Positions 1,664 through 43,468 of a stretch of DNA of 43,876 nucleotides are shown one piece after another (positions within the stretch are counted from its first letter, which is position 1; every line of letters begins with the position of its first letter). Under the pieces are notes generated by a model. The model worked only from the letters and a program-made list of their open reading frames with translations, was not told where the DNA came from and did not search any database. This DNA comes from a virus. The translations under genes and the position numbers were made by a program. The DNA lies in IMG/VR virus record IMGVR_UViG_3300010396_000025, positions 1 through 43,876 of that record; one strand, given 5' to 3'.

Positions 1664-1939
1664 ATGAACACACCACCAATCGAACTAATCGCTACGGAAC
1701 TCCAGCGTCAGCAATTAAAATATAATCCAGAACATGACGACCAGCATGCTCAATGCGAACTCCTCGCAGCCGCAGCCAACTATATGTTCTACGGCGCGAC
1801 CTGCGATGTTCCAGGCCTCGATGGAATTCCGTATCCTTTCGAGGATGATCTTCTTCCGCGTCAGTATCGCATTGATAACCTCGTCTGTGCAGCATCCTTA
1901 ATCTGCGCCGAGATTGCGCGGCTTCAGAGGTTGAAATAG
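1664..1939 (+). CDS. Conserved phage protein of the EHDDxH...ELxxAA type, 91 aa
   Basis: The product contains YNPEHDDQHAQCELLAAAA, then PYPFEDDL and LVCAASLICAEIARLQRL. This matches a very common phage and prophage family in which a (W/Y)(T/N)PEHDD.H..GEL..AA segment is followed by a Pro/Trp loop and a C-terminal helix with LI.AEI.RL. Members resemble the N-terminal part of dATP/dGTP diphosphohydrolase-type proteins, but their biochemistry is largely unproven. The start follows an A-rich leader (TCAAACAAA). The stop TAG shares its G with the first palindrome copy. I am confident of the family resemblance, not of a nucleotide hydrolase role. Confidence 0.7.
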   Translation: MNTPPIELIATELQRQQLKYNPEHDDQHAQCELLAAAANYMFYGATCDVPGLDGIPYPFEDDLLPRQYRIDNLVCAASLICAEIARLQRLK

Positions 1940-1954
1940 TAACCTTAAAGTTAC
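1939..1954. repeat. 16-bp palindromic element, copy 1 (intergenic)
   Basis: GTAACCTTAAAGTTAC flanked by A and C, matching the family RGTAACYTTAARGTTACY. It begins on the last base of the upstream stop codon and ends six bases before the small terminase ATG. Confidence 0.95.
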
Positions 1955-1960
1955 CAATTT

Positions 1961-2407
1961 ATGCCACGCAAACGAACAGGCAACGTAGCCACGACGGTCA
2001 ACGGATGGGCGGTAGAGCTGGCCATAGACCAGCAGACCATCCAGCGCAGGTTGACCAAATACGGGATGCCACCAAAACCCCTTGTGCTGTATTCTGCGCG
2101 GGATGTCTTTGCAGCCATCCATGGAGACCGGGAGGCGATGCTTCTGCGCAAGGCAACTGCCGAGGCCGAACAGCTGGAGCGGGAGAATCTGGAGGCTGAA
2201 AAGATTCTGGTGAACGTGGCCGAGCTTGAGCCGAGAGTCTGGGGCGAAATCCTTCTGCCCATCAAAGTCGAGGTTGACCTGGTGGCTGACAAGCTGGCGG
2301 CTCTGGTCAATCCAGAAAACCCGGACGCAGCCCACAAGATTCTGACCGAGTGGTCGGAGCAGGTGATAAAACAAATCAACGAAAAGAAACCAGCAAAGAA
2401 AAAGTAA
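1961..2407 (+). CDS. Terminase small subunit (Nu1-like)
   Basis: The 148-residue product has an N-terminal winged-HTH-like segment (NGWAVELAIDQQTIQRRLTK, about residues 13-32), a glycine/proline turn, then a long charged helix (AEAEQLERENLEAEK) and a Lys-rich end. This layout, DNA-binding head plus helical oligomerisation region, fits the small subunit that recognises viral DNA and delivers it to the large terminase. It sits directly upstream of the large subunit. The gene is bracketed by two palindrome copies, and its TAA stop lies inside the second. Sequence identity to Nu1 cannot be judged here; position and domain layout carry the call. Confidence 0.75.
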   Translation: MPRKRTGNVATTVNGWAVELAIDQQTIQRRLTKYGMPPKPLVLYSARDVFAAIHGDREAMLLRKATAEAEQLERENLEAEKILVNVAELEPRVWGEILLPIKVEVDLVADKLAALVNPENPDAAHKILTEWSEQVIKQINEKKPAKKK

Positions 2408-2419
2408 CCTTAAAGTTAC
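2404..2419. repeat. 16-bp palindromic element, copy 2 (provides a stop codon)
   Basis: GTAACCTTAAAGTTAC again. Its second to fourth bases are the TAA stop of the small terminase gene, and it ends four bases before the TTG start of the large terminase. Confidence 0.95.
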
Positions 2420-2423
2420 CATT

Positions 2424-4334
2424 TTGAAAACCTCCACCGACAAATTCTTTCAAGTCCTGCTGGACCGGTTCTGTCAAACCAGGTCGAAGGTGCCAGCCTC
2501 GACCTGGTGTGAGGAGCATCTGAACCTGAACGAGCCGAAGATTAAGGGCCGGTTCAGTTTCAGTGGGCGTGAATATCTACGCGAGGTTGTGGACGCATGG
2601 GGAGTCCTTCCGCAATCTTTGCGCGGCGGTAAGAACTTTATCTTTGTCGGTGGAACCGGAGTCGGAAAGACCATAGCCACGGTTGGAGGTCTTTGCCATC
2701 GTATCGGAACCTGGCCCATGCGGGCACTGGTGGTGAAGCCGACATCTGGAGGGCCGGCCGGTGCCCGTTCATTTTCAAAGACCAGGCTTGGAAAAACCAT
2801 CAGGTCAACAAAAGTTCTGGCCGATAAAATTCCACAAGGCGTGGACCGCTATGACTTCTCGACCATGCAGATGATTATCAATGGTTCGGTGATAGACCTG
2901 ACCGGAAGCAATTCAGTTGGGCAGTTGGGGGAGAACCGTTGCGACGTGGTGCTTCAGGACGAGATTGATAAATACCCAACCCAGTCGGAGGACTCGAAGG
3001 AAGCCAGCCCGATAGTCCTGGCCGATGAGCGCATGAAGAACGTCATCGGCGCGCGCGCTTACAAGATGTCCACACCGACCCTGCCGACGGTCGGGATTTG
3101 GGCGCATTTCAAAAACACAGACATGCGGCGTAGGTTTCTCCCGTGCCCGCATTGCAAGGATTTTGTTGTCCTTGCCTGGTCCAAGCGGTTCTCAGTCTTC
3201 GAGCCAACCGGAAACGAAGCCTATGTCCATTGGGACACGGAAGCAAAGGTGAATGGAATCTGGGATTATGACCGAGTTGAAAAGTCCGCGCACTATGTCT
3301 GCCCGCATTGCCAGGGAAAGATTCGGAACATCCACGTTGCCCAGATGGACCATTTCGGAAAATGGGTGGCGACGGCCAAGAATCCTTTGCCCGGAGAAAT
3401 CGGATGGCATCTTCCGTCGCTCTATTCCACTTCACCCGATTGCGCAGTCGGCAAGCTCGCGGTCAAGTTTCTGAAAGCCAAGCGCAGCCCAGAAGGCGTG
3501 AAGGGTTTCATTAATTCAGATTTGGCCGAACCGGATATGCAGCAGGACATGAAGGTGGATAAAATAGGAACGGCTGCGCGCCAGATTGAAATAACGCAGG
3601 AATGGCTGAACCTGATGACTGTGGATTATCAGCAGAACGCACCATACTTCTGGGCCATGATTCGGGCTTGGGATGGAAAGGACAAATGCCACGGATTGGC
3701 TTACCGGGCACTTCATCAATGGTATGAACTCGACGAGCTTCAAAAAGAGTTCAAGATTATTCCGCAGGCCGTGGCGATTGACATCGGATTCGACCAGGCC
3801 GAGGTTTTTAAAAACTGCGCGGATATTAAATCAGTCAACCGTTGCAACCTGCTCGAAGCCCAGCAGGACGCCCTGCCATTATGCGATGGTTGGTCCCCCA
3901 TGAAGTCGTATGGGGGAAAGAGACTATACAGGGAGGAGGAGACCGGACTGTTCCTTCCGTATCGTCTGCGCAAAAATGTTGACCCGTATGCTGGAACCGA
4001 GCTTGCAGCCAAGATGCAGATTGAGGTTATCGAATTTCTGAATGATGTATTCGAGGACATGATGGAAAACATCCGGCTTGGAAAGTCCGGTCTTCAATGG
4101 ACGATTGCGCCGGAGGTGGACACCGAGGAATATCACAAACACATGGCCGGAAAGAAACGGGTGTATTCCAAGAAAGACCCAAGGCAGTATTCCTGGGAGC
4201 GAATCCGGTCTGGATATGCCGACCACATTCACGCCTGCGAAGTCATGCAGTTGGTTCTGGCCTTCCGGTTGCAGTTGATAAGTTTTGACGCGATTCAGAC
4301 CAAGAAAAAAGAAAATGAAAATTCCACCACCTAG
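2424..4334 (+). CDS. Terminase large subunit, gpA family
   Basis: ATPase-nuclease motor that packages DNA into the prohead. The 636-residue product has the Walker A GGTGVGKT (76-83), Walker B DVVLQDE (174-180) and a coupling DKYP segment just after it. Two CPHC pairs (about 237 and 291) form the zinc-binding element seen in GpA-type terminases, and a C-terminal nuclease region includes IDIGFDQAEV and a GYADHIHACEV end. Length is normal for the family. The start is TTG, as no ATG lies near the conserved N-terminal region (STWCEEHLNL). No clear Shine-Dalgarno is present; the palindrome copy 2 fills the ribosome-binding region. The 3' end overlaps the PP-loop gene by 20 bases. Confidence 0.93.
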   Translation: MKTSTDKFFQVLLDRFCQTRSKVPASTWCEEHLNLNEPKIKGRFSFSGREYLREVVDAWGVLPQSLRGGKNFIFVGGTGVGKTIATVGGLCHRIGTWPMRALVVKPTSGGPAGARSFSKTRLGKTIRSTKVLADKIPQGVDRYDFSTMQMIINGSVIDLTGSNSVGQLGENRCDVVLQDEIDKYPTQSEDSKEASPIVLADERMKNVIGARAYKMSTPTLPTVGIWAHFKNTDMRRRFLPCPHCKDFVVLAWSKRFSVFEPTGNEAYVHWDTEAKVNGIWDYDRVEKSAHYVCPHCQGKIRNIHVAQMDHFGKWVATAKNPLPGEIGWHLPSLYSTSPDCAVGKLAVKFLKAKRSPEGVKGFINSDLAEPDMQQDMKVDKIGTAARQIEITQEWLNLMTVDYQQNAPYFWAMIRAWDGKDKCHGLAYRALHQWYELDELQKEFKIIPQAVAIDIGFDQAEVFKNCADIKSVNRCNLLEAQQDALPLCDGWSPMKSYGGKRLYREEETGLFLPYRLRKNVDPYAGTELAAKMQIEVIEFLNDVFEDMMENIRLGKSGLQWTIAPEVDTEEYHKHMAGKKRVYSKKDPRQYSWERIRSGYADHIHACEVMQLVLAFRLQLISFDAIQTKKKENENSTT

Positions 4335-5169
4335 AAAACAAGATAAAATTATATTTCCAACTGACAGACTGATTGAGGTCTTTTCATCTGGAGGAGGAAC
4401 TCAATCAATAGCTGCTCAGGTTTTAGTGCTACAAGGCAAACTGCGCAGGCCTGATATTATTGTAATTGCAGATACCGGCAGAGAAATGCCGACAACTTGG
4501 AATTATTTTAATGAAGTAACTCTGCCGGCTTTTCAGAAAACGGGTATTCCGATATTTAGGGTTAAGTCTTCTGAGTGGTCGTATAAATGCTATACTAACG
4601 GAGGAGCATTTACAGAGCCGACAAAGGAAGGCGTTGATTCACATCTTCAAATTCCGGCATTCTCAAACATAAACGGAGCTGTTTCAAAACTGAAGCCGTT
4701 TTGTTCTAAGGCATGGAAGCGGGAGGCAATTCAAAGATTTCTTTCAATAAAATTTGGAATCAAGCGAAGTAAATATAAAACCTGGATTTGTTTTTCTATT
4801 GACGAAACTAACAGAGTTTTAAGAATGAAGGAAGGCGGAGACTTCAAAAAAGGATTGGTTTATTTTCCGCTCGTTGATTTGATGATTAAACGTCAGGATG
4901 CGATTCAAATTGTAAAAAAGTTTGGATGGCCAGAGCCTCCAAGGTCAAGGTGCTTTGATTGCCCAAATCAAACAGATTATGAGTGGACAGAAGTGGCCGA
5001 AAACTTTCCAAAAGAATTTAAGAGTGCGTGCGACAGGGACGACTATATTAGGACGAGAGATAAAAATGCTTTTCTTCACTCTACTCTTACGCCGTTAAGG
5101 TCTGTTGACCTTTCAAAAAAGGATGATTTGTTTAGCGGAGGGTGCCCGTCTGGAGAATGCTTTTTATGA
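4315..5169 (+). CDS. PP-loop ATPase (PAPS-reductase/adenine nucleotide hydrolase-like)
   Basis: The PP-loop SGGGTQS lies at residues 25-31 after strand EVFS. It is followed by IIVIADTGREMP (48-59), the characteristic second motif of PAPS-reductase-like enzymes that activate a substrate by adenylation. C-terminal cysteines (RCFDCPNQ and the terminal GGCPSGECFL) could bind metal. Phage enzymes of this superfamily act in sulfur transfer or nucleobase modification; the substrate here is unknown. I take ATG 4315 rather than TTG 4285, leaving a 20-base overlap with the terminase. The gene is visibly more AT-rich than its neighbours, with many A-ending codons, suggesting later acquisition. Other possibilities are DndC-like or a stand-alone sulfurtransferase. 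Confidence 0.8.
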   Translation: MKIPPPRKQDKIIFPTDRLIEVFSSGGGTQSIAAQVLVLQGKLRRPDIIVIADTGREMPTTWNYFNEVTLPAFQKTGIPIFRVKSSEWSYKCYTNGGAFTEPTKEGVDSHLQIPAFSNINGAVSKLKPFCSKAWKREAIQRFLSIKFGIKRSKYKTWICFSIDETNRVLRMKEGGDFKKGLVYFPLVDLMIKRQDAIQIVKKFGWPEPPRSRCFDCPNQTDYEWTEVAENFPKEFKSACDRDDYIRTRDKNAFLHSTLTPLRSVDLSKKDDLFSGGCPSGECFL

Positions 5170-5354
5170 CCCCACCCCTTTCCCTGCGCCAGGAACAAAT
5201 CATCCACCTGATTTCCCACGGCCTGACAGACAAGGCGATTGCGGCCAGGCTTGGGATAGCTGAGGCTACCGTGGGGCACCATGTGACCGAGGCATTAAAG
5301 AAGCTTGGAGCGCATAGCCGGTCTCACGCTGTGCGCCGTAGGTATCTTAAGTAA
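5166..5354 (+). CDS. Stand-alone LuxR/GerE-type HTH protein, 62 aa
   Basis: Almost the whole product is one LuxR-type DNA-binding domain: LSLRQEQIIHLISHGLTDKA (5-24), then AARLGIAEATVGHHVTEAL with the recognition helix at about 34-47, and a basic C-terminus (SRSHAVRRRYLK). There is no receiver or ligand domain, so it would act as a small dimeric regulator. Translation is coupled to the PP-loop gene by ATGA. It ends the leftmost block, just before an AT-rich control region and terminator-like hairpin, so it could regulate the late operon that follows. LuxR-type dimers bind palindromes of about 18-20 bp, the size of the repeated palindrome in this genome. Confidence 0.85.
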   Translation: MTPPLSLRQEQIIHLISHGLTDKAIAARLGIAEATVGHHVTEALKKLGAHSRSHAVRRRYLK

Positions 5355-5550
5355 AGAGAAGGTTACTTTGTGAATTTTAACTTAGGTTAAGTATCTGTGG
5401 TTGAATACCTTATGCCTATATAATTTATAAGATATTGATTTTTAGATACTTACTAAAGTAATTAAAAATTTAGTAACTTGCTCTTTACCTTTTTTGGGCT
5501 GGAGCTTTTGTCTAGCTACCAAGTTTTTTTTTCTGGCCTAGACTAGACTC
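5355..5550 (+). promoter_or_regulatory. AT-rich intergenic control region before the head genes
   Basis: This 196-bp gap is the most AT-rich stretch of the left arm. It holds a perfect TATAAT hexamer at 5419-5424 without a convincing -35 at 17 bp, an 8-bp inverted repeat (TTACTAAA 5450-5457 with TTTAGTAA 5469-5476), and a terminator-like hairpin at 5500-5532. It separates the terminase block from the portal/capsid operon and is the likely place for late-gene control. Promoter strength is not judged. Confidence 0.5.
5500..5532 (+). terminator. Probable rho-independent terminator
   Basis: TGGAGCT (5500-5506) pairs with AGCT-A-CCA (5514-5521), leaving one bulged A and a seven-base loop, followed by a run of nine T (5524-5532). 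The stem is short, so strength is uncertain. It lies upstream of the head operon, and readthrough or antitermination here would matter for late expression. Confidence 0.5.
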
Positions 5551-6012
5551 GTGGACATTAGTGTAGAAAAACTACAATTTTTTCTTGAGACGGCCTGGGT
5601 CAACGCGCCGAAGGATGCCAATACCCTGCGCGACCAGATGTTCACCTACGAGACCACTGCACGGAATCTGGCCAGGGGCGGTTCAATCGGTTCGGTTTCC
5701 AAGAATAATGCTTCTCATTCTTATCGCGGTCCAGGTCTCGGAACTTACACACCGGACCAGCTCGGTGATGCGTGGCGGATGCTCATAAATTTCTACGAAG
5801 ATTCTCTGCGCTGGGTCAAGTGGGCGATTCTGAATCCTCCGACACCGCTTCCTGATTGGTGGCCGGTGGCTCCTCCAGATGGAGATTATGACCCGGCTAC
5901 TTATGCAGCAATGAAATGGAAGCTGAAAGGCTGCACAGAATATCAAACTGACCTTTCTGATTTGCGGCTTCACCCGACCCTTGGAAATGGGAGCTTTGTC
6001 CAGACATGGTAA
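5551..6012 (+). CDS. Small head protein in gpW position, 153 aa
   Basis: A GTG-started product with an N-terminal helix (VEKLQFFLETAWVN), a conserved-looking Gly/Ser stretch (ARGGSIGSVSKNNASHSYRG) and a Trp/Pro-rich C-terminal half. It sits between terminase and portal, the place of the head-completion protein gpW in lambda. That position, plus the SVSKN...SY segment resembling small head-tail joining proteins, suggests a capsid role, but the length exceeds gpW and I cannot prove homology. The stop overlaps the portal start by seven bases. Confidence 0.6.
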   Translation: MDISVEKLQFFLETAWVNAPKDANTLRDQMFTYETTARNLARGGSIGSVSKNNASHSYRGPGLGTYTPDQLGDAWRMLINFYEDSLRWVKWAILNPPTPLPDWWPVAPPDGDYDPATYAAMKWKLKGCTEYQTDLSDLRLHPTLGNGSFVQTW

Positions 6013-10273: not shown

Positions 10274-10279
10274 ACCAAC

Positions 10280-11338: not shown

Positions 11339-11605
11339 ATGAGCGATCCAATTGAAAAAGAGGGTGAAGATACCCTGGAGCAATCAAACGAGCCTGTGGA
11401 GGCTTCCAAGGCCGTCCATGAATCCATTGCGGAGGCTGTAATCAAGATTATGCCGGAAGCTGAAAAGGTGGCCGGCGAAGTCTTGATCCTTGCGATGCTG
11501 GTCGAGTCTGCGGTTAAAAGCCATCTGTCCTCTCACGCTCAGAATCAATCTGAGCTGACGGTTAAAAACGAACTGGCTGCAAAACTCAACCCGGTTAAAA
11601 TCTAA
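11339..11605 (+). CDS. Small acidic helical protein, 88 aa
   Basis: The product starts with an acidic, polar stretch (SDPIEKEGEDTLEQSNEP) followed by a mostly helical region (AVIKIMPEAEKVAGEVLILA) and a helix ending LAAKLNPVKI. It overlaps the next gene by one base (TAATG). No family is recognised. Position between capsid and head-tail connector genes suggests a small head protein or chaperone. Confidence 0.6.
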   Translation: MSDPIEKEGEDTLEQSNEPVEASKAVHESIAEAVIKIMPEAEKVAGEVLILAMLVESAVKSHLSSHAQNQSELTVKNELAAKLNPVKI

Positions 11606-13536: not shown

Positions 13537-13905
13537 ATGGCTGATGCATATAATGAAGGTGTGGGTCACGGTGGCATAATCGTGAACATGTTGAACGGCT
13601 CTGCCCAGCAGGGCGTCGTGATCGACCCGTGGAATCTGGACCCGGAGACAATCAAGCTCAAGCAGCCAGACCAATACGGAACCTCGCAGAAAAAGGGTGG
13701 CCGTATTATAAACCTTTCGGCCACCGGCGAGGCGCAGCTTCCTACGGTTGGGGGACTTGGTGTGGCTCCGCTTCCGCTAGTGGCCGGACAATACTTTCTC
13801 GACCCGTTATCAAATTATTATTTCTGGATTGCCAAGGCTGGTCAGGCTTACCAGTCTGGCCAGTTTTGGAAGCAAGCCATTGAATGTGAACAAAAGTTGA
13901 ACTAA
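13537..13905 (+). CDS. Candidate tail tube protein, 122 aa
   Basis: The product is Gly- and beta-rich (GGIIVNMLNGSAQQGVVIDP, GEAQLPTVGGLGVAP, AGQYFLDPLSNYYFW) and follows an A-rich leader, as highly expressed genes here do. It lies directly before the chaperone-position and tape measure genes, the place of the major tail protein. It is short for a tube protein of this order (lambda gpV has 246 residues), so another tail role is possible. A palindrome copy follows its stop. Confidence 0.5.
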   Translation: MADAYNEGVGHGGIIVNMLNGSAQQGVVIDPWNLDPETIKLKQPDQYGTSQKKGGRIINLSATGEAQLPTVGGLGVAPLPLVAGQYFLDPLSNYYFWIAKAGQAYQSGQFWKQAIECEQKLN

Positions 13906-13909
13906 AAAG

Positions 13910-13925
13910 GTAACTTTAAGGTTAC
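13910..13925. repeat. 16-bp palindromic element, copy 3 (intergenic)
   Basis: GTAACTTTAAGGTTAC, the reverse-orientation form, flanked by G and T. It lies six bases before the next ATG and its AAGG could double as a distant ribosome-binding site. Confidence 0.95.
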
Positions 13926-13931
13926 TCTTTT

Positions 13932-14615
13932 ATGACGGGAATCGCTCTAAATCAAGTCCCCGGTTGGCGCGAGGCGGTAAAAAAGGCTCGCGCCAAGCAG
14001 GAGCGCATTCGCGAGAATGCGTGGAAGAATCTGGCATACGAAATCAATGGATTCAAGGTGCGGCCGATGACCGTCTTGGATTATTTGATGCTCGACCATT
14101 TCGGTTCTCCGTTTCTGTATCGCCAGCAACCGCAACTTTGTGACCTATCCTGGATTCTTTGGGCATTGAGCCCTCAATGCCTGAAATGGAACCAAAAGAA
14201 CATCCAACTCGGTCGGACTCTGGCATCTTTTTTCTATTCTCGAAAGGTTAGTAAAAAACTCGGCCGTGATGGAATCTTCCAGGAGTCCTGCACAAAAGTC
14301 TTTGAGTATATTGATGACATGTTTATGGATGCCCCGGCTGGTATGCAGGGCGGCAAGGCGGCAGTCTGTTATCTGGCCTCCTGGTTTGATATAATCCAAA
14401 GCCAGTATCATTGCAGTGAGGATGCGGTCAGGTTCATGCCGTTGCCGCAGATGTTCCAGAGGATTCGCGCCATCCAGGAGCGCAACGGAAATGAACAGCC
14501 AGCCTTCGACAAGGTTGAAGACCGGTTGAAGCAATTCGTTCAAAACGGGATTTCATCGCGCAAGTTTTCCTACGATGATTTGGTCAATGGAAAAGTTTCA
14601 TTTGAATTAAACTGA
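13932..14615 (+). CDS. Tail assembly chaperone-position protein, 227 aa
   Basis: A mostly helical protein containing INGFKVRPMTVLDYLMLDHF, a pattern like tail assembly chaperones in which a tail-binding motif precedes a helical bundle. It sits between tail tube and tape measure. Chaperone genes usually produce a second form by frameshift, but I see no convincing slippery heptamer near the end. The stop overlaps the tape measure start (TGATG). Confidence 0.55.
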   Translation: MTGIALNQVPGWREAVKKARAKQERIRENAWKNLAYEINGFKVRPMTVLDYLMLDHFGSPFLYRQQPQLCDLSWILWALSPQCLKWNQKNIQLGRTLASFFYSRKVSKKLGRDGIFQESCTKVFEYIDDMFMDAPAGMQGGKAAVCYLASWFDIIQSQYHCSEDAVRFMPLPQMFQRIRAIQERNGNEQPAFDKVEDRLKQFVQNGISSRKFSYDDLVNGKVSFELN

Positions 14616-28101: not shown

Positions 28102-28550
28102 TGAAACCTGGATTTCATCGGGATAAAATCCGCGTCTGGACTGGAGACGGTTTGGATGACGTGATAATTGACCAGTTGGATTATTGTTCCGAAGCAGGCA
28201 TCCTTTACCGGGTGCCTGCTGGGGGAACCACAGACGGCCTTTCTGTTCCGCGAATCGTGCAGAACATAATTCCGGCCTCTGGAAACTCGTCCTGGATGGC
28301 CGGAGTCCTGCACGATTCGGCCTATCGTAATCAGCTCCTCCGCTTCGACGGCCTGGCCTTCGTTCCTGCGCTGCTTAACAGGGCCAAGGCTGACAGTTTG
28401 ATCTTTGAGGCCATGAAAGCCCAGGGAGTCGGATTGATTCGCAGGTGGGTCATTTACGGAGCTTTGCGGGCCTTTGGGAGCAAGGCATGGTTAGATAATA
28501 GGTCTGCTGCCGGAATCCTCCGAAACCAGCTTCGATCATGTAAAAAGTAA
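28101..28550 (+). CDS. DUF1353 family protein, 149 aa
   Basis: Clear DUF1353 features: a VPAGGTTDGLSVPR segment (about residues 33-46), an AGVLHDSAYR motif (about 65-74) and a helix RAKADSLIFEAMKAQGVG followed by a Trp/Tyr-containing end. The family is common in phages near tail and lysis genes; its biochemical role is not settled, and conserved His/Asp suggest an enzyme. Here it closes the lysis-like cassette, where an endolysin would be expected. Its TAA stop lies inside palindrome copy 4. Confidence 0.85.
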   Translation: MKPGFHRDKIRVWTGDGLDDVIIDQLDYCSEAGILYRVPAGGTTDGLSVPRIVQNIIPASGNSSWMAGVLHDSAYRNQLLRFDGLAFVPALLNRAKADSLIFEAMKAQGVGLIRRWVIYGALRAFGSKAWLDNRSAAGILRNQLRSCKK

Positions 28551-28562
28551 CCTTAAAGTTAC
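28547..28562. repeat. 16-bp palindromic element, copy 4 (provides a stop codon)
   Basis: GTAACCTTAAAGTTAC flanked by A and T. Its TAA terminates the DUF1353 gene and it immediately precedes the strong terminator. Confidence 0.95.
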
Positions 28563-28572
28563 TCTTTTCCGC

Positions 28573-28604
28573 AGGCGCACAAAAATAATTTCGTGCGCCT
28601 TTTC
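28573..28604 (+). terminator. Rho-independent terminator after the late operon
   Basis: AGGCGCAC (28573-28580) pairs with GTGCGCCT (28593-28600) around an AT-rich loop and is followed by TTTCC. This eight-bp GC-rich stem plus short T-run marks the end of late (structural and lysis) transcription. Confidence 0.8.
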
Positions 28605-29160
28605 CTTTCAAACATTAGCTGATTCAGTTTCCCAGCAAGATTTTTGAAAATAGTTGTAGACTTACTAGTAAGTCTTTGATAGTCTGTTCTCAGGTAAGGC
28701 GCAGTCGAAGGGCAGTCCAAGAGACCAGCAAGGCTCGCCAGCCAGAAAGCGGAATCCCGGTAAAAGCCCGGCGCAGGTCCAGCGAAAGGAACGAGGAGAG
28801 AGAAGGAAGAAATTTCCGGTTCAGTCCGGTTCTACTTAAAAAAGTATTCCTCCACCAGATAGGCAAAAGCGCAGACTCCCCCAACTGCTACTTACCGAAA
28901 TCGGTTCTGGCCAATTTCCAAACATCCCAATCCACCGACAAGCTCTTTAGAACTAAAGGCACTTCGATGCGAGTCTGAATTAAAGTAGGCACTTTGCAGA
29001 AAGCCGAAAATCAGGTAGCAAGATAAGAAGATGAAGCTCAGTTCCACGATAAGAAAGCCCGGTGGCCAAGGGTCGGTTCAATGCAGCCTTGCGCAATATC
29101 CTTTGCGCAAGTCGGTGACAAGCCCGAAACAATGCAGAGTCAAACCTAGAACGCAAAGCT
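28605..29160 (+). ncRNA. Gene-free region with candidate large structured RNA
   Basis: No reading frame here has protein-like composition. The region is rich in potential helices. GGTAAG-GC-GCAGT (28693-28705) can pair with ACTGC-TA-CTTACC (28884-28896), an 11-pair long-range helix with a 2x2 internal loop. CACCGAC (28933-28939) can pair with GTCGGTG (29111-29117). Local hairpins include TACTT/AAGTA with AAAA loop (28833-28846) and TTGCGCAA/TTGCGCAA (29089-29110 region). CAGACTC (28872-28878) and GAGTCTG (28971-28977) could form a pseudoknot. It starts just after a terminator and a palindromic operator. Large ornate RNAs (GOLLD, ROOL) of similar length occur in phages; I cannot assign this to a known class. 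Confidence 0.45.
28659..28674. promoter_or_regulatory. Palindromic operator GACTTACTAGTAAGTC
   Basis: A perfect 16-bp palindrome, related at 14 and 13 of 16 positions to two sites at the ribbon-helix-helix-like gene (31998 and 32041). It lies between weak promoter-like hexamers TTGTAG and TGATAG spaced 17 bp apart. Binding here would control transcription of the gene-free region. Confidence 0.6.
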
Positions 29161-30068: not shown

Positions 30069-30102
30069 ACCTGTTTCTAAAATCTTCAACTTGCTACTAA
30101 CT

Positions 30103-31191
30103 ATGGTCACCGTGAATCGCAAGCTCGTCATCTGCCGGAAGTGCAAACGCCCAACATTAGAATCGAAGGATGCCTGCGGCTTTTGCGGGCATCCGACCAA
30201 GGCCAAGATGTTCGAGTGCCCGTCATGCGGGAAGTCCCAGCCGTGCCCGACAGGAAAGGAGAACAATTCTTTCCGGTGTGTTCACTGTCGCTCAGCCATG
30301 TGGTTTTCGGATGGCGGAGGCAAAAAGACTGTTCCTGCCAAGGGGAGCGTAGCAGCCACCCCGAAGCTAGTCTCAACGCCTCTTCCAGCCACCAAATCTC
30401 CGGTCAAGGGTAAAACTACCCTTCCGCCATTAAAACGTCCTGTAAACGATTCTACGAAGCCTGTTGAGGTATTAAAGAGTAACCTTAAAGTTACCATTAT
30501 GGACCGGGACGACATGGATATTCCTCCCGGCCAGGTTCGGCGCAGCATCGGAGACGTGTTCATGTGGGACCACTGCGAATATGTCGTGCAGAGGGTTTCC
30601 CCGACTAGCGCGACAGCCGTCTGCATGAATCGAAACCGGCAGACTGTGACCAATAAGTTGACCGGAGAAACAGCCACCTTTGAGAAGTCTGCGCGGGAAA
30701 TCCGCATCAGCTCCTGCTGCGACCGACAGGATATAATCCGCCGTGAAGAAAATTTCCAACCGCAAAAGCCCGGAGCGGTCGGACCAACCAACAAACAATC
30801 CGGCACGAAAGAAAATAGTATGGCAAAAATCAAAGCACCGAAAACAACCCAGGGCACCGTCCTCGACATGATTGTCAAGATGGCCAAGGCTGGTAAATCA
30901 GAAAAGGACATCACCTCGGCGGTCAAGTCGAACTACGGTGGACCGACTCCGAGCGTAGCCTACCTCATTGGCCGTGAATGGCGTCGGGTCAACAAGGTCG
31001 GCCGGCACTTTGCTGTTAAAGGCAAAGCCGTCAAGTCCGCTCCCAAGGCTCCGGCCAAGAAAGCACCTCCGGTGAAGCAGGTGGCCGCAAAAAAGCCGGC
31101 ACCGAAAGCCAAGGTTGTGAAGACAACTCCTCCGCCTCCGCGTGCAGTCGAATCCGAACCGACGCCGGAACAGGAGTCTGCGCCGGAATAA
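30103..31191 (+). CDS. Zinc-ribbon / basic-tail protein, apparent three-part fusion, 362 aa
   Basis: Residues 9-65 hold four CxxC pairs (CRKC, CGFC, CPSC, CVHC), two zinc ribbons. A Pro/Lys linker leads to palindrome copy 5, read as SNLKVT, then a beta-rich middle domain beginning at an internal ATG (30499, MDRDDMDIPPGQV). A second A-rich linker (TNKQSGTKENS) precedes another internal ATG (30820, MAKIKAPKTTQGTV), a helical DNA-binding-like domain and a Lys/Ala/Pro histone-H1-like tail. The junctions look like former intergenic leaders, so separate products are possible. Likely nucleic-acid binding. A strong terminator follows. Confidence 0.65.
   Translation: MVTVNRKLVICRKCKRPTLESKDACGFCGHPTKAKMFECPSCGKSQPCPTGKENNSFRCVHCRSAMWFSDGGGKKTVPAKGSVAATPKLVSTPLPATKSPVKGKTTLPPLKRPVNDSTKPVEVLKSNLKVTIMDRDDMDIPPGQVRRSIGDVFMWDHCEYVVQRVSPTSATAVCMNRNRQTVTNKLTGETATFEKSAREIRISSCCDRQDIIRREENFQPQKPGAVGPTNKQSGTKENSMAKIKAPKTTQGTVLDMIVKMAKAGKSEKDITSAVKSNYGGPTPSVAYLIGREWRRVNKVGRHFAVKGKAVKSAPKAPAKKAPPVKQVAAKKPAPKAKVVKTTPPPPRAVESEPTPEQESAPE
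30479..30494. repeat. 16-bp palindromic element, copy 5 (in frame, coding)
   Basis: GTAACCTTAAAGTTAC flanked by A and C, translated as part of SNLKVT, four bases before the internal ATG 30499. That spacing matches the intergenic copies that precede true starts. Confidence 0.95.
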
Positions 31192-31236: not shown

Positions 31237-32007
31237 ATGTTTCCAATTTATATCCCAAGCAAAGGCCGCGCAGAATTGAAAGGCGGAACCATAGACACGC
31301 TTGGAGGCTTACCGTTTAAGATTGTTTGTGAGCCTCAAGAATACTCTGCCTATTATGACAGGGTTGGTCCGGCAAGGGTTATTCGGCTGCCTAAAAATAA
31401 TCAAGGACTTGCGTTCTCTCGCCAGTTCATAAAACAGTATTCAACTGATTGCGGAGATGAGTATCATTGGCAGATGGATGACGATATTCGTTCGTTCTTA
31501 TTCCGCAAGAAAGGCGGCCACGAAATCCTTCCTGCGCAGGAAGCCTTGAAACAAGTCGAGCAAGAAGTCCTGCGATATAATAATATCGGCCAGGCAGGGA
31601 TGAATCAAAACTCATGGCCTCCGAACTGCGATAGGCCAATTGTGGTGAATGGATTGCCGGTTCAGTCTTTTTTGGTTAATAATTCAGTGAAAGCTGAATT
31701 TAGGCTTCGCCGCCTTAATGACATGGATTTTACAATGCAGATTCTAAGGGAAGGGTGGTGTAGTCTCATGTTTGATCTTTTGCGGACAAATTGCCCGCCG
31801 ATAGGAACTAATGCCGGTGGGCTTCACGATGTGTATCAGAAAAAAGAAATCCTGCTTGAGTCAATGCGGCAAATTGTAAAAGACAATCCATCAATGTCCA
31901 TTGAACAAGACGAAAAAGGATGGCACCTGAAAAAGAATCGAATCTTTTCAACATTCAAACAGCAGCCAATTCCAGTCAACCTAGAACCATTTAAGCTTAC
32001 TTACTAG
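31237..32007 (+). CDS. GT-A glycosyltransferase, TET-associated (TAGT)-like, copy 1
   Basis: The 256-residue product begins with IYIPSKGRA, then FKIVCEPQEY and an NNQGLAFSRQFI helix, and has the DxD-type metal site in YHWQMDDDIRSF (Asp81-83). Further on are NIGQAGMNQN and LNDMDFTMQILREGWC, which align with the second glycosyltransferase of this genome. These features fit the TAGT family, phage glycosyltransferases proposed to add sugars to hydroxylated bases in phage DNA. Acceptor and sugar are unknown. It starts right after a strong terminator, so it may have its own promoter or rely on readthrough. More AT-rich than its neighbours. Confidence 0.65.
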   Translation: MFPIYIPSKGRAELKGGTIDTLGGLPFKIVCEPQEYSAYYDRVGPARVIRLPKNNQGLAFSRQFIKQYSTDCGDEYHWQMDDDIRSFLFRKKGGHEILPAQEALKQVEQEVLRYNNIGQAGMNQNSWPPNCDRPIVVNGLPVQSFLVNNSVKAEFRLRRLNDMDFTMQILREGWCSLMFDLLRTNCPPIGTNAGGLHDVYQKKEILLESMRQIVKDNPSMSIEQDEKGWHLKKNRIFSTFKQQPIPVNLEPFKLTY

Positions 32008-32040: not shown

Positions 32041-32056
32041 GACTTGCTAATATGTC
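32041..32056. promoter_or_regulatory. Operator-like site 3, overlapping the RHH-like start codon
   Basis: GACTTGCTAATATGTC matches the 28659 palindrome at 13 of 16 positions and includes the ATG at 32052. A dimer bound here would block both transcription and initiation, as expected for autoregulation. Confidence 0.5.
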
Positions 32057-32264
32057 CCCAATGAAAAAAGTCCAGCTCGGAGTCAAAACCACAAAAGAAA
32101 TGGAATCGGCGGTTCTGGCTGATGCTTCCGAATTCGACCGCTCAAAGGACGGCATCGTTCAGGCCGCGCTTCAGAATCATTTCCTTTTTAAAAAAGAGGA
32201 ACGCCGCAGAATCTATTCCGCAATCCCAAAGAAAATCTTTGGCCGTCCGTTAACCAAGAAATAA
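32052..32264 (+). CDS. Ribbon-helix-helix-like small regulator, 70 aa
   Basis: A short strand (KKVQLGVKTT) is followed by two helices (KEMESAVLADASEFDRSKDG and IVQAALQNHFLFKK), the order of the Arc/CopG ribbon-helix-helix fold, with a basic tail. Such proteins bind palindromes as dimers of dimers and often repress themselves. Two related palindromic sites lie at its start and a third at 28659, supporting this. AGGA nine bases upstream favours ATG 32052. Confidence 0.7.
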   Translation: MSPMKKVQLGVKTTKEMESAVLADASEFDRSKDGIVQAALQNHFLFKKEERRRIYSAIPKKIFGRPLTKK

Positions 32265-34906: not shown

Positions 34907-34958
34907 TCCAAACTCTCGCCCTTTCGGGCAGAATAAACAAAACAAACAAAGGAAAAAT

Positions 34959-35189: not shown

Positions 35190-35238
35190 AATTTCTGCAT
35201 AACGCAGAGAACTAAACAAAACAACAAAGGAAAAACAA

Positions 35239-36012
35239 ATGAGCAACCTACCAAGTCCAGGAAAGTATCGTGCGCGCTGCACGGCCAGGCCGTTCTATCC
35301 CGAGCCGGGTGAAAGCGGTTCAATCATGATTCACATTCCATGTGAGTTGACTAACTCCGAAGTTCCATATTCAGGAGTCGCCAAGACGGTCTTCGTCAAG
35401 AAGGATGGAAGCCTGATGAAGAAAACGATTCAGGCCATCGCCCTGATTTTCGGAATCGAACAGCCTGCCAACCTGTTCTTCGTGGATGACATCGAAGACG
35501 AATCCGAACTAATCGGAAAAGAGTTTGAAGTGGCCGGCACAATCGGTGAGTTCACTCCAGAGGGTGCTGAGTCTCCGATTCAAACATTCGAGCTGAGCTG
35601 GCCGACTCCAATTGGTGGCATGGGCGCAAGTCCAATCACGGCTGAAACCCGGAAGGAGATGCTGACCAAATTCGGGAGCAAATTCAAGGCATTGTTCGGT
35701 TCAGCCGCGAAGCCAGCCTCGACTCCTGCCAAGTCTGCACCTTCGGCACCTGCAAAGCCGGCAGTCAAGCCTGCTGTCTCTGGGCCTCCTGGCCGCAAGT
35801 CCACTGCGGTCGTTGCGCGGACTTCAAGCCAGAACGAAGTCTGGGACGCATTGGACGAACAGAACAAGGCATCAGACGAACCGCTAGGCGAAGACGAAGT
35901 CGCACAGAAGTATTACGATGCGATTGATGCTGTCGTGCCGGAAGGTTCGACTAAGCCGGAGACATTGACGCCTGCGCAATGGGGCAAGGTGGCCGAGTCT
36001 CTCGGCGTCTAA
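35239..36012 (+). CDS. DUF669-like single-stranded DNA-binding protein
   Basis: The N-terminal 130 residues (LPSPGKYRARCTARPFYPEP; IPCELTNSEVPYSG; KTVFVKKDGSLMKKTIQAIA) match phage DUF669-type SSB-like proteins that accompany Sak4 ATPases. An Ala/Pro/Lys linker (about 155-190) leads to an acidic C-terminal region (NEVWDALDEQNKASDEPLGE), similar to protein-interaction tails of SSBs. Strong AAAGGAA site upstream. It probably coats ssDNA for the Sak4-like annealing factor. Palindrome copy 6 follows. Confidence 0.65.
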   Translation: MSNLPSPGKYRARCTARPFYPEPGESGSIMIHIPCELTNSEVPYSGVAKTVFVKKDGSLMKKTIQAIALIFGIEQPANLFFVDDIEDESELIGKEFEVAGTIGEFTPEGAESPIQTFELSWPTPIGGMGASPITAETRKEMLTKFGSKFKALFGSAAKPASTPAKSAPSAPAKPAVKPAVSGPPGRKSTAVVARTSSQNEVWDALDEQNKASDEPLGEDEVAQKYYDAIDAVVPEGSTKPETLTPAQWGKVAESLGV

Positions 36013-36016
36013 AAGA

Positions 36017-36032
36017 GTAACTTTAAGGTTAC
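36017..36032. repeat. 16-bp palindromic element, copy 6 (intergenic)
   Basis: GTAACTTTAAGGTTAC, the reverse-orientation form, flanked by A and T, five bases after the SSB stop. It sits at the left edge of the second gene-free, helix-rich region. Confidence 0.95.
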
Positions 36033-36046
36033 TAAAATTTTGGTCG

Positions 36047-36270
36047 CTCAACACAACGCTAGGCCAAAGCGCAAACTTACGATTGGGAGCAATAGACCCA
36101 ATGTTGATGTTGAGATAATTTTAATGAGCGCGTGGCGGAATAAGACGCTTGCGACTAAGGATTCAGTCAGTCCGATTGACCTCGGCGGTAGCACAGGAAA
36201 CAGAAAGTAACTAGTCAGACTTTCAATGAAGTTCCTTAAATGAATCCATGCAGGTATGAAACAACCCTGC
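36047..36270 (+). ncRNA. Candidate structured RNA, 5' part of the 36-kb gene-free region
   Basis: CTCAACA (36047-36053) pairs with TGTTGAG (36108-36114), enclosing CGCT/AGCG (36057-36071) and ATTGGG/CCCAAT (36082-36102), a three-way junction. Further hairpins are GAAAGT/ACTTTC (36203-36224) and GCAGG/CCTGC (36250-36270). Each helix alone is short enough to arise by chance; their succession in a stretch without coding signal is the reason for the call. Confidence 0.35.
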
Positions 36271-36283
36271 CGCGCTCACCAAT

Positions 36284-36396
36284 TTGATGGCAATGCAACA
36301 AAGGCAAGTCCGTATAAGGCTATTATGTTTGTGCTATGCACAGATTTGCTAGGGTGTATCCCGTATCGGTAAGAAGTCCGTGAGTATTGCCATCAA
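36284..36396 (+). ncRNA. Candidate leader RNA with 13-bp closing stem
   Basis: TTGATGGCAATGC (36284-36296) pairs with GTATTGCCATCAA (36384-36396), thirteen pairs with one G-U, enclosing about 87 bases. Inside is TGTGC/GCACA with a three-base loop (36330-36342) and a repeated AAGTCCGT. The stem ends 51 bases before the next ATG, the usual spacing of a cis-regulatory leader. Class unknown. Confidence 0.5.
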
Positions 36397-36447
36397 TTCA
36401 ATTTACTACCGAACAAGCTTGGCGCTGACGAGCAAGAAAGGAACAAA

Positions 36448-37744: not shown

Positions 37745-37748
37745 TTTT

Positions 37749-38395: not shown

Positions 38396-38396
38396 A

Positions 38397-38690
38397 ATGA
38401 ATCTATTTGTCCTAAATCGGGCATCTCGGTGGTTGCGGCTATTTACTTGCTGCCATCAATTCAGGCTTGGCGACCAATCGTTCACAAAAATACCTGAACC
38501 GGAAATGCCATCGGAGAACGCGAGTTATGCGGCCTGTCTCGAATGGTGCCAAATGCGTGACAAGCACCCATCGCACACGAAGCGAGTTCAATGGCCGTGC
38601 GTTAAATGTGGAAAGGTGTTCTATGTTCATTGCGGGTTGGATATTTCCAAGCATGGAAAAATAATAAAACAGGCCGAAAATTTAATCTAA
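38397..38690 (+). CDS. Cys-rich hypothetical protein, 97 aa
   Basis: The start is one base after the resolvase stop. The product has a hydrophobic basic N-terminus (MNLFVLNRASRWLRLFTCCH), a Cys in AACLEWCQMRDKHPSHTK and a zinc-ribbon-like CVKCGKVFYVHC. A nucleic-acid or protein-binding role is plausible but unsupported beyond that. Confidence 0.55.
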   Translation: MNLFVLNRASRWLRLFTCCHQFRLGDQSFTKIPEPEMPSENASYAACLEWCQMRDKHPSHTKRVQWPCVKCGKVFYVHCGLDISKHGKIIKQAENLI

Positions 38691-38698
38691 AATTTATT

Positions 38699-38950
38699 AT
38701 GACTGAATTTGAAATTGATTTCACCCGCAACGAATTCATCAATCTGGCCATGGCCTTGCGTCACCGGCTGCTGACCAAGCCTTCGGAATTCCTGCGCGAC
38801 CTGCAACATCGCTGCACGGAGGTGGTCAATGACGGGGACTGGCTTACCTGTTCATCTGCGCGGCTCACCTGGAACATCTGCGATATTATTTTGGTTGAAC
38901 GTCAGCAAAGAAAGGAGGCGATTAAAAATGAAAGTCAGAGAACTGATTGA
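38699..38950 (+). CDS. Hypothetical helical protein, 83 aa
   Basis: ATG 38699 is preferred to an upstream start that would overlap the previous gene. The product is helical (FTRNEFINLAMALRHRLLTK; FLRDLQHRCTEVVNDGDW). Its end contains the strong AAAGGAGG site of the next gene. Function unknown. Confidence 0.55.
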   Translation: MTEFEIDFTRNEFINLAMALRHRLLTKPSEFLRDLQHRCTEVVNDGDWLTCSSARLTWNICDIILVERQQRKEAIKNESQRTD

Positions 38951-39077
38951 GGAGCTTCAAAAATGCAACCCAGATGCCGAAGTCGTATTGGATGATGCAG
39001 ATAGCCTTGTTGAAGTTGATTACGGAAATCCATCAAGTTGTGCTGCGTCAGTTATTTTAATTGGAGATTCTGAATGA
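38928..39077 (+). CDS. Small conserved phage protein (MKVRELIEEL type), 49 aa
   Basis: Perfect AAAGGAGG nine bases upstream of ATG 38928. The product (MKVRELIEELQKCNPDAEVV) is the short form of a common phage family starting MKV.ELI..L....PDA.V.., of unknown function. It overlaps the preceding gene by 23 bases and the helicase by four. Confidence 0.7.
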   Translation: MKVRELIEELQKCNPDAEVVLDDADSLVEVDYGNPSSCAASVILIGDSE

Positions 39078-40828: not shown

Positions 40829-40832
40829 ATTT

Positions 40833-41051
40833 ATGAACCATCCAAATAAAAAACACATGGACCTGCCGAGCTATAAAAACCACAGCGCATACATGAAAGC
40901 GTGGCGAGCCAAACGCAAGTCTCAAGGCATCAAAACAAAAATGTATCGCAAGAAACCAAAGCAGGTGATCGAGTTCGGAAAATATGCCGACTGGTTTTCT
41001 GAATTTGCATTCGGATGCGGAACTAAAACCAATCCAATCCTTTCATCCTGA
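40833..41051 (+). CDS. Small basic protein, 72 aa
   Basis: ATG 40833, four bases after the helicase stop, is preferred to upstream in-frame starts. The product (MNHPNKKHMDLPSYKNHSAY) is rich in Lys/Arg (KAWRAKRKSQGIKTKMYRKK). Likely nucleic-acid binding; no family is recognised. Confidence 0.5.
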   Translation: MNHPNKKHMDLPSYKNHSAYMKAWRAKRKSQGIKTKMYRKKPKQVIEFGKYADWFSEFAFGCGTKTNPILSS

Positions 41052-41318
41052 ATGCCGAACCCGTTTAACCAAGGCGACTACGAATTTATGCCACCTCCGC
41101 CACCTAAAAAGAAACTACCGCCGAAACGGCAATCTGCGCCAGCCACTGGATTCGGCCTGGCCTTTCAAATCAACCAGCATTTCGACACCGAAGATGAGAT
41201 GAACCAATACATCGAAATGAACCTTTCAGAACACGGAACCAGGAAGGTCGAAGTCATCAATACATGGAAAAAAGAAGTCATCTGCTGCCGGGTCAGGCTG
41301 GCCGATAAACAGAAATAA
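41052..41318 (+). CDS. Hypothetical protein, 88 aa
   Basis: The ATG directly abuts the preceding stop (TGAATG). A Pro/Lys-rich segment (MPPPPPKKKLPPKRQ, residues 13-27) is followed by a small alpha/beta domain (FDTEDEMNQYIEMNLSEHGT; VINTWKKEVICCRVRLAD). The Pro-run start resembles that of the next gene, suggesting a shared linker or duplication. Confidence 0.5.
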   Translation: MPNPFNQGDYEFMPPPPPKKKLPPKRQSAPATGFGLAFQINQHFDTEDEMNQYIEMNLSEHGTRKVEVINTWKKEVICCRVRLADKQK

Positions 41319-41321
41319 ATT

Positions 41322-41654
41322 ATGCCACCTCCTCCTCCGAGAAAGAAGTCTGCCCCGCCGGCCAGGAAGCCTGAACCGGTTATTCCGAAGCGTGATTTAT
41401 TCCGCGCCGCTGAACAACCAGACCTGCTATCCGTGGACAAGGCTTGGGAACAAGAATGGCAGGGAATGCCTGAATATGAAAGAAGGGAAATGATGCCGTT
41501 TCACACACTTTATGTTCATTTTGAAAATAGGGAGGATATTAAAAAGTTTTCAGAAATGATTGGGCAAAAAATAAGCGAAGAAACAAAATATATTTGGCAC
41601 CCAAAGAAACAACAACTAAGGGTTGCCAAACTTAGATTTAAATCAGATAAATGA
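41322..41654 (+). CDS. Conserved phage protein beside glycosyltransferase, 110 aa
   Basis: After a Pro/Lys-rich start (MPPPPPRKKSAPPARK), the C-terminal part contains FHTLYVHFENREDIKKFSEM and IGQKISEETKYIWHPKK. This resembles a small phage family with a V.F....D...F....G...... .IW(F/H)P pattern often found next to TAGT-like glycosyltransferases. It is coupled by ATGA to the second glycosyltransferase, so the two may act together. Confidence 0.6.
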   Translation: MPPPPPRKKSAPPARKPEPVIPKRDLFRAAEQPDLLSVDKAWEQEWQGMPEYERREMMPFHTLYVHFENREDIKKFSEMIGQKISEETKYIWHPKKQQLRVAKLRFKSDK

Positions 41655-42358
41655 ATCCACAATTTCCAGTTTATGTTATCTCAAAAGGAAGGTGGGAATC
41701 ACTATTAACTTCCAAGGAACTTGATCGAATCAATGTTCCGTATAAGTTGGTAGTCGAGCCTTCGGAGGCAGAGCAGTATTTGAAAGAAGTCTCAGAAGAT
41801 AAAATCTTGATTGCTCCTGAGGATTTCAGCCTGCGCAAATGTGGCTCAATTCCTGTGCGCAATTTTGTGTGGGAACATTCAATTGAATCCGGCGCAGAAT
41901 GGCATTGGATTATGGACGACAACATTCAAGCATTCTGGAGGGCAAACAATAACATTCGCGTTCGTGTTGCTGATGGGACAATTTTTAGATGTGTTGAAGA
42001 TTTTGCTAACAGGTATGAAAATGTTGGGCAGGCAGGACTTAATTACTATATGTTCTGCGTCGATAGACTTTATTATCCGGCTTTTTGGATAAACACGAGA
42101 ATTTATTCCTGCATACTTCAGAGAAATGAAATTAAACACCGTTGGCGTGGCCGATATAATGAGGACACAGACCTATCAATAAGAATCTTAAAAGATGGGT
42201 GGTGTACAATTTTAATTCAGGCTTTCCTGGCTCAGAAAGCCACAACTGGCTCAGTCAAAGGTGGCAACATGGAGCATCTGTACGGAGGCAACGACCAGGT
42301 TGGAAACAAGGAGAAAGAATGGATTGAAAAGCGCAGGTTAATGGCGCAGTCCGATTGA
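41651..42358 (+). CDS. GT-A glycosyltransferase, TET-associated (TAGT)-like, copy 2
   Basis: The product (235 aa) has VYVISKGRW, YKLVVEPSEA and EWHWIMDDNIQAFW with the metal site at Asp89-Asp90. It shares NVGQAGLNYY and YNEDTDLSIRILKDGWC with copy 1, so the two are distant paralogues. Family knowledge suggests transfer of a sugar onto modified bases of phage DNA. It is AT-rich and coupled to the upstream small gene. Whether both copies act in sequence or on different acceptors is unknown. Confidence 0.65.
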   Translation: MNPQFPVYVISKGRWESLLTSKELDRINVPYKLVVEPSEAEQYLKEVSEDKILIAPEDFSLRKCGSIPVRNFVWEHSIESGAEWHWIMDDNIQAFWRANNNIRVRVADGTIFRCVEDFANRYENVGQAGLNYYMFCVDRLYYPAFWINTRIYSCILQRNEIKHRWRGRYNEDTDLSIRILKDGWCTILIQAFLAQKATTGSVKGGNMEHLYGGNDQVGNKEKEWIEKRRLMAQSD

Positions 42359-42380
42359 CCAACATCCAGATATTGCCACC

Positions 42381-42638
42381 ATGTCTTGGAAATGGGACAG
42401 GCCTCAGCATCAGGTGAATTATGGAGGCTTTAAGCAGAAGCTGGTCCGCAAGCCGGGCTGGAATTATTCCGGCGTAGATAACTACGGGATGAAGTTGATT
42501 CAAATCGAGAAGCCGGTCAAGGAAAAGAGTAACTTTAAAGTTACCAAATCGCCTCCGACCAAGAAAGCCTTCGACCAGGACTATTGGAAGAAACAAGGAT
42601 TCAATCGAGACCCGAAGGCAGATATTCAAAACCTATGA
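42381..42638 (+). CDS. Hypothetical protein, 85 aa, with palindrome-encoded linker
   Basis: The product (MSWKWDRPQHQVNYGGFKQK) is basic with aromatic residues. Palindrome copy 7 encodes SNFKVT at about residues 50-55 within a Lys/Pro linker (KPVKEKSNFKVTKSPPTKK). It ends in an acidic-basic helix (DQDYWKKQGFNRDPKA) and overlaps the primase start by ATGA. Function unknown; co-translation suggests a replication accessory. Confidence 0.6.
   Translation: MSWKWDRPQHQVNYGGFKQKLVRKPGWNYSGVDNYGMKLIQIEKPVKEKSNFKVTKSPPTKKAFDQDYWKKQGFNRDPKADIQNL
42529..42544. repeat. 16-bp palindromic element, copy 7 (in frame, coding)
   Basis: GTAACTTTAAAGTTAC, a perfect palindrome, flanked by A and C, and translated as part of SNFKVT. 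Confidence 0.95.
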
Positions 42639-43468
42639 TTTGGCAGCACGCAACCAAAAAGAATCCATGCCCAATCTGCGGCAGGGAGGATTGGTGTTCA
42701 TTCGGCGAACGCATGATGCTTTGTCAAAGGGTCGAATCTGCCAGGCCGCACTCGAAGGGTGGTTGGTTTCACGGCTATCCCGGCTCGGATGGTAACTTTA
42801 AAGTTACTAAATTTATCCCGCCTACGAGGTCTGCTCCGCAGGTCTTGGACGCAGAATCGGTCATGGATTCAGTTTCCGGCGCAGGAGATATAAAGAGCCT
42901 GTCGGAGTCCTTGGGCGTCTCTATGGACAGCTTAGACGCCTTGGCAGTAGGTTATAGCCATGCACATAAAGCCTGGGCTTTCCCGATGTCGGACGGAGAT
43001 GGAAAATATATCGGAATCCGGTTGCGGAACAAAGATGGGCAGAAGTGGGCTGTCACCGGTAGCCGGCAGGGGGTATTCCTGCCAAAGAGTAACTTTAAAG
43101 TTACTCCTAAAGTCTGCTATTTGCCGGAAGGTCCAACTGATACGGCCGCGCTGCTCAGCATGGGACTGTTTTCCATTGGCCGACCGACCTGCATGAGCGG
43201 AAATGAATTAGTTGCGCAGGCTCTGAAACGGCTCAAGATTTACAAGGCTGTAATCATTTCGGACAATGACGGACTAAAACAGTTTGCAAATAAAGAATCT
43301 CGCCCAGGAATCATCGGAGCCAAGAAACTTAAAAAAGAGCTTGGAATCAATTCAGTAATCTGGATGCCTCCGGCTCCAATCAAGGATGTCCGGGAATTTT
43401 ATAAGCGCGGAGGAACCGCACAACAAATCGAAAACGAAATCAAAAGCAAAGTATGGAGCAAAATATGA
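42635..43468 (+). CDS. DNA primase-like protein: zinc finger plus TOPRIM, 277 aa
   Basis: An N-terminal zinc-binding region (CPICGREDWC and LC, Cys12, Cys15, Cys21, Cys30) is followed by a linker and a TOPRIM domain with CYLPEGPTDTAALL (about 159-172) and VIISDNDGLK, the acidic residues that bind metal. This is the layout of a compact phage primase or primase-like protein. Two palindrome copies are translated within it: NFKVT at 54-58, just after the zinc finger, and SNFKVT at about 152-157, just before TOPRIM. There is no helicase domain in the same chain; the SF2 helicase is separate. Confidence 0.8.
   Translation: MIWQHATKKNPCPICGREDWCSFGERMMLCQRVESARPHSKGGWFHGYPGSDGNFKVTKFIPPTRSAPQVLDAESVMDSVSGAGDIKSLSESLGVSMDSLDALAVGYSHAHKAWAFPMSDGDGKYIGIRLRNKDGQKWAVTGSRQGVFLPKSNFKVTPKVCYLPEGPTDTAALLSMGLFSIGRPTCMSGNELVAQALKRLKIYKAVIISDNDGLKQFANKESRPGIIGAKKLKKELGINSVIWMPPAPIKDVREFYKRGGTAQQIENEIKSKVWSKI
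42792..42807. repeat. 16-bp palindromic element, copy 8 (in frame, coding)
   Basis: GTAACTTTAAAGTTAC flanked by G and T, encoding GNFKVT in the primase linker. Confidence 0.95.
43089..43104. repeat. 16-bp palindromic element, copy 9 (in frame, coding)
   Basis: GTAACTTTAAAGTTAC flanked by A and T, encoding SNFKVT directly before the TOPRIM domain of the primase. Confidence 0.95.

Follow-up and report, generated by a model that had tools for sequence, protein, structure and literature searches.

Networks of dispersed operators are best known from the temperate phages of actinobacteria. In phiC31, the conserved inverted repeats (CIRs) are palindromic operators that occur as highly conserved copies in intergenic regions, and they are bound by the c repressor of this temperate actinophage, which autoregulates. 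The Cluster A phages L5 and Bxb1 carry stoperators, sites that are specific to each phage, nearly identical to one another, and scattered in large number across the genome, with a consensus that varies between related phages and tracks the binding protein (PMC6550527). Here we describe a comparable arrangement in an unrelated, uncultured phage family: an 18-bp palindrome, RGTAACYTTAARGTTACY, occurs in nine copies in the 43,876-nucleotide virus record IMGVR_UViG_3300010396_000025 of IMG/VR, which was analysed over its whole length and is referred to as the window. The candidate binder of this network, a LuxR-type helix-turn-helix (HTH) protein, has only 62-70 residues.

The first-pass annotation of this DNA likened the sites to L5 stoperators, and the likeness holds for their dispersion but not for membership of the class. 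The stoperators of L5 are asymmetric, 13-14 bp long, bound by a monomeric repressor, oriented mostly in one direction, largely unconnected with promoters, and present in 20-30 copies in temperate phages, where they block elongation. All nine sites of the window, on the other hand, are inverted repeats with a symmetric 26-bp consensus, and some of them are in-frame coding copies. As with the CIRs, a conserved palindrome is found in several intergenic copies: noncoding gaps hold five of the nine, though only 6% of the genome is noncoding (P 6e-5, with a hand-picked gene list), and the other four lie in open reading frames (ORFs). Unlike in phiC31, no c-like repressor was found among the ORFs scanned (not all of them were), and the candidate is the small HTH protein instead. 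Nor was an immunity repressor seen among the scanned ORFs, a partial set that was not searched exhaustively for a repressor or an integrase.

The ESAS inverted repeats of Cluster K phages are considered DNA-binding sites by their authors and have a subcluster-specific consensus, and the Cluster K sites share with the present ones a proximity to starts, lying 3-7 nt before start codons (PMC3203893). The start-associated sequence (SAS) of that cluster is, however, asymmetric, overlaps the Shine-Dalgarno sequence, and is confined to the starts of its many genes, whereas in the window it is the palindrome that sits against the start, and it is found within genes as well; copies 4, 7, 8, and 9 do not precede a start at all. 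Finally, the isolated 70-residue output domain of NarL forms a dimer on 16-bp 7-2-7 dyads and represses without its receiver domain (PMC4549865). What the window shares with the NarL/GerE output domain is a LuxR-type HTH of about 70 residues and 16-bp inverted heptamers with a 2-bp spacer, yet NarL is a host two-component regulator and its heptamer reads TACCCCT, against GTAACYT in the window. Our best reading is that the palindromes are dispersed operators of the phage that would work much as the L5 stoperators and the phiC31 CIRs do, while belonging to neither class.

The palindrome family and its placement

The nine copies are exact matches to RGTAACYTTAARGTTACY, as counted in the first-pass annotation, which placed each start one base too high. 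They are located as follows.

1938..1955, copy 1, AGTAACCTTAAAGTTACC: overlaps the TAG stop of ORF 1664-1939; 5 nt to the ATG of the terminase small subunit
2403..2420, copy 2, AGTAACCTTAAAGTTACC: includes the TAA stop of ORF 1961-2407; 3 nt to the start of the terminase large subunit
13909..13926, copy 3, GGTAACTTTAAGGTTACT: in the gap that separates ORF 13537-13905 from ORF 13932-14615; 5 nt to the ATG
28546..28563, copy 4, AGTAACCTTAAAGTTACT: includes the TAA stop of gene 28104-28550 (DUF1353)
30478..30495, copy 5, AGTAACCTTAAAGTTACC: reads SNLKVT if translated through in ORF 30091-31191; probable start ATG 30499, 3 nt downstream
36016..36033, copy 6, AGTAACTTTAAGGTTACT: 3 nt past the stop of ORF 35239-36012 (named SSB in the first-pass annotation)
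42528..42545, copy 7, AGTAACTTTAAAGTTACC: in frame, SNFKVT, in ORF 42381-42638
42791..42808, copy 8, GGTAACTTTAAAGTTACT: in frame, GNFKVT, in the primase-like ORF 42584-43468; linker 4-5 residues shorter in homologues
43088..43105, copy 9, AGTAACTTTAAAGTTACT: in frame, SNFKVT, in the same primase-like ORF; linker 1-3 residues shorter in homologues

Such recurrence had been judged beyond chance, and rightly: the chance expectation from 100 dinucleotide shuffles is zero, the window holds no further sites at one to three mismatches, and a scan for repeated dyads retrieves the motif with p 6e-24. Variation within the 18-mer is confined to positions 1/18 and 7/12, where it is always A/G or C/T, and the remaining 14 positions are fixed in all nine copies (126 of 126 bases invariant). 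There are thus two variable pairs rather than the three symmetric R/Y pairs described previously, and the two halves vary independently of each other; the half-sites AGTAACC, GGTAACT, and AGTAACT occur six times each. The flank of the 18-mer is T-rich, with three outside positions (+2 to +4) carrying about 1 bit each. Because these T positions are conserved, the site is better described as one of about 26 bp, AAANRGTAACYTTAARGTTACYNTTT, with A/T-rich flanks. Its inner 16-bp dyad, GTAACYT-TA-ARGTTAC, consists of inverted heptamers with a 2-bp spacer (7-2-7), which is the geometry of a LuxR/NarL-type operator, and the half-site centres of the 18-mer lie 11 bp apart.

The placement follows the gene boundaries. 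Copies 1, 2, and 4 share bases with the preceding gene's stop codon, and a start codon follows copies 1, 2, 3, and 5 at a distance of 3-5 nt. Copy 5 probably also marks a gene boundary, since the homologue in the relative L067 matches only from residue 138, near ATG 30499. The four copies inside open frames (5, 7, 8, and 9) all use one shared reading, S/G-N-F/L-K-V-T, and their silent codon positions are unchanged, so that a constraint at the DNA level is written into replication proteins. The contig ends in an identical terminal repeat of 123 bp, from which the map is probably complete and circular, with 43,753 bp. On this circular map five sites fall within an arc of 3.6 kb that runs from the primase region as far as the large terminase (P ~0.02, 20,000 random placements).

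Copies 1, 2, 3, and 5, as well as two sites in a related fragment (L034, see below), lie 3-5 nt before start codons and the right flank is T-rich, both of which would suit a signal acting in the RNA, i.e., a weak terminator or a translation-control hairpin of the SAS kind. The stem, however, would comprise just the five pairs of GTAAC, outside which A:C mismatches are frequent (copies 1, 2, 4, and 5); folding energies are -3 to -9 kcal/mol per 38-nt stretch, and copies 7-9 are located within reading frames. As the variants often break the pairing, they point to a double-stranded DNA dyad rather than an RNA hairpin. With its weak folding and A:C mismatches, the hairpin or terminator is disfavoured, and we hold an RNA-level role to be very improbable. 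The palindrome behaves like DNA recognised by a symmetric dimer. That the copies form a family of dimer-binding DNA sites is well supported by their dyad symmetry, the independent variation of the half-sites, the constraint at the DNA level, and the placement at gene boundaries.

Distribution of the motif and other palindromes in relatives

In IMG/VR, the exact 18-mer is present in 41 contigs with one copy each, all of them chance-like except L034. Cellular genomes (257 billion bases from 84,980 bacterial and archaeal species) yielded 89 single matches, which is about chance level, and never two motif copies on one contig. Phages do borrow host operators in general, but with such numbers it is extremely unlikely that the phage captured the sites of a host regulator; a host regulon is rejected, and the palindrome is not a host motif.

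Syntenic relatives were retrieved via portal, primase, and capsid, and many are fragments. The window motif was not found in these syntenic relatives, and at the orthologous sites of 20+ relatives it is absent except in L034. The site set is therefore young and phage-specific. Conservation at orthologous places, by which the first-pass annotation proposed to judge the motif, accordingly fails beyond this one close relative. No close relative was found among isolated phage records, and an alignment scan with the terminase large subunit returned mostly distant terminases and was of little help.

L034 is a 4-kb fragment whose large terminase is 90% identical to that of the window. Its exact copy lies 5 nt before a gene that the window does not have, while the orthologue of copy 1 holds a decayed copy with three mismatches and that of copy 2 the right half-site only. 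Extra genes are found between the small and large terminase (L034:1354-2512), the last one with AAGTTACCATTTT on both sides, and this pair looks as if half-palindromes had been recombination points for gene gain or loss.

Taken with the extra gene of L034 and the repeats at its bounds, two further observations would fit a mobile, self-spreading palindromic element (similar to the Rickettsia palindromic elements) with numerous recent insertions, also in frame within genes: both primase copies fall where homologues are shorter, and the junction at 13909 is 19 nt longer in the window than in the relative L049, which is without a palindrome there. Still, the primase length differences amount to 1-5 residues, not 6, and do not fit an insertion of 18 bp. 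Neutral copies, moreover, would not show changes at only the four degenerate positions with 126 of 126 other bases invariant, which makes such an element improbable.

Some more distant relatives carry repeated palindromes of their own. In L049/G001 (22 kb, capsid 80% identical), the repeated-dyad scan found GGAGCCANTGGCTCC seven times (p 5e-14); three of these copies belong to a single tail protein, and repeats in the protein may account for part of their recurrence. In G004, AAAGGTANTACCTTT occurs three times (p 1e-7), once some 10 bp ahead of an ORF that is HTH-like by eye. In most other relatives, the same scan showed no repeated dyad. Each lineage thus appears to have its own palindrome "lock and key". 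Near the left end of the L049 fragment, three closely packed CAATGCTTAAGCAATG repeats are also found (L049:187-259).

The small HTH gene as candidate binder

The first-pass annotation had named a small LuxR-type HTH protein as a candidate binder. The relevant features are the following.

5142..5354, + strand: stand-alone LuxR/GerE-type HTH gene, candidate binder (Pfam GerE 4.5e-15; PDB GerE, CviR, NarL)
5350..5367: AGTAAAGAGAAGGTTACT, a degenerate dyad that shares bases with the LuxR stop codon and has 4 mismatches, none of them in the outer arms
5457..5489: a pair of weak sites (5457 and 5472; AGTAACTTGCTCTTTACC) that overlap each other, in the gap preceding ORF 5551-6012 and portal

In a genome-wide weight-matrix scan for weak sites, three of the four best (5350, 5457, and 5472) are located at or in the 196-nt gap behind the LuxR gene. 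Shuffles of this gap itself give P 0.03 for the best score and P 0.005 for the third-best; as the gap is AT-rich, we regard the cluster as supportive, not conclusive.

In the relatives examined, the small protein encoded between the large terminase and the pre-portal gene is LuxR-type or otherwise HTH-like (the non-LuxR assignments were made by eye), and in several phages a palindrome lies in the 3' end of this small HTH gene or in the gap behind it. In L046, which has a LuxR homologue, the stop codon of the LuxR gene falls within the dyad AGTAAACAGCTGTTTGCC; the same GTAAC-N6-GTTAC frame recurs in a second copy, GTAACCAGCTGGTTAC, at 11385. L057 likewise encodes a LuxR homologue; AAAAGCGTTACCATTGGTAACGCTTTT lies in the final codons of this ORF, a half-site lies at the stop, and a second dyad follows behind, the sites at this locus being AAAAGCGTTACCANTGGTAACGCTTTT-type. 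L049 encodes a different HTH there, and one GGAGCCANTGGCTCC copy encodes the end of that HTH gene. Small HTH genes are thus linked to repeated palindromes in several relatives. Besides L057, L055 alone has the L057-type palindrome in multiple copies; in L055, three close-set TTACCATTGGTAA-centred palindromes of this type precede the gene before the portal (L055:1-98).

With the weak sites behind the gene and the pattern in L046, L057, and L049, the LuxR-type HTH has become a better candidate than before, and we infer both its identity as the binder and a repressing rather than activating role. The ~26-bp site would serve as a high-affinity operator for a DNA-binding protein that the phage itself encodes and that binds as a dimer. 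The likeliest such protein is the LuxR/GerE-type HTH of 62-70 residues (5142-5354), a free-standing counterpart of the NarL output domain, two copies of which would bind the 16-bp 7-2-7 dyad. Strong copies at gene junctions and through the replication genes may act on the modules behind them as repressor sites or transcriptional roadblocks. This would be likelier than activation, because an activator sitting 3-5 nt ahead of a start codon would be unable to position a transcription start site upstream of the gene. The weak copies behind the LuxR gene could couple both the level of the LuxR-type protein and the portal/capsid operon to this switch, and weak binding beside the protein's own gene combined with strong binding elsewhere might make that switch a graded one. 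Judged from sequence, this proposal seems to us evenly poised.

Several points weigh against it. The palindrome behind the LuxR gene is degenerate in the window, and the dyad of L057 differs in internal order. L034, which alone shares the exact motif with the window, stops short of the LuxR region. No clear repeated dyad is seen in three LuxR carriers (L053, L054, and L056), and the near-complete relatives G015 and G016 are without one. The phage also encodes other possible binders, namely the 32052 protein, the 37007 protein, and the small terminase (TerS).

The first of these is described by one further feature.

32052..32264, + strand: possible ribbon-helix-helix (RHH) protein, alternative binder; weak match (phrog_13814 E 0.018)

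The sites could be operators of this protein or of the small terminase, or else dispersed replication or packaging sites: the small terminase is flanked by them, the 3.6-kb arc with five sites also holds the primase, a primosomal-type gene, and the terminase, and the 11-bp spacing of half-site centres suits RHH dimers as well. The RHH call is weak, however, as folding of the single sequence gave a low-confidence two-helix model (predicted template modelling score, pTM, 0.24) and the candidate has no PDB sequence match. TerS homologues, in turn, are present in relatives without the motif, and the weak sites cluster behind the LuxR gene. We therefore see a different binder, or a role in replication or packaging, as unlikely.

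Returning to the LuxR-type HTH as the binder, we tentatively suggest that a tiny HTH gene (LuxR-type or other) between terminase and portal forms, with dispersed palindromes, a quickly swapped specificity pair in uncultured phages. Equally tentatively, such pairs might amount to an immunity-group-like operator network with a free-standing output domain of 62-70 residues and in-frame sites in replication genes. Since relatives have other palindromes beside other small HTH genes, the co-evolution of a regulator with its genome-wide sites becomes directly testable.

Neighbouring genes and gene-poor stretches

Directly before the LuxR-type gene lies a gene resembling phosphoadenosine phosphosulfate reductase (phrog_424, 4285-5169). 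Copy 4 is followed by a GGCGCAC...GTGCGCC stem with a T-rich tail. Two stretches, 28564-29160 (~600 nt) and 36034-36447 (~410 nt), contain no convincing genes, and Rfam and tRNA scans of them gave no match. Finally, two TET-associated glycosyltransferase genes (Pfam TAGT) are located at 31237-32007 and 41651-42358, which suggests modified DNA bases.

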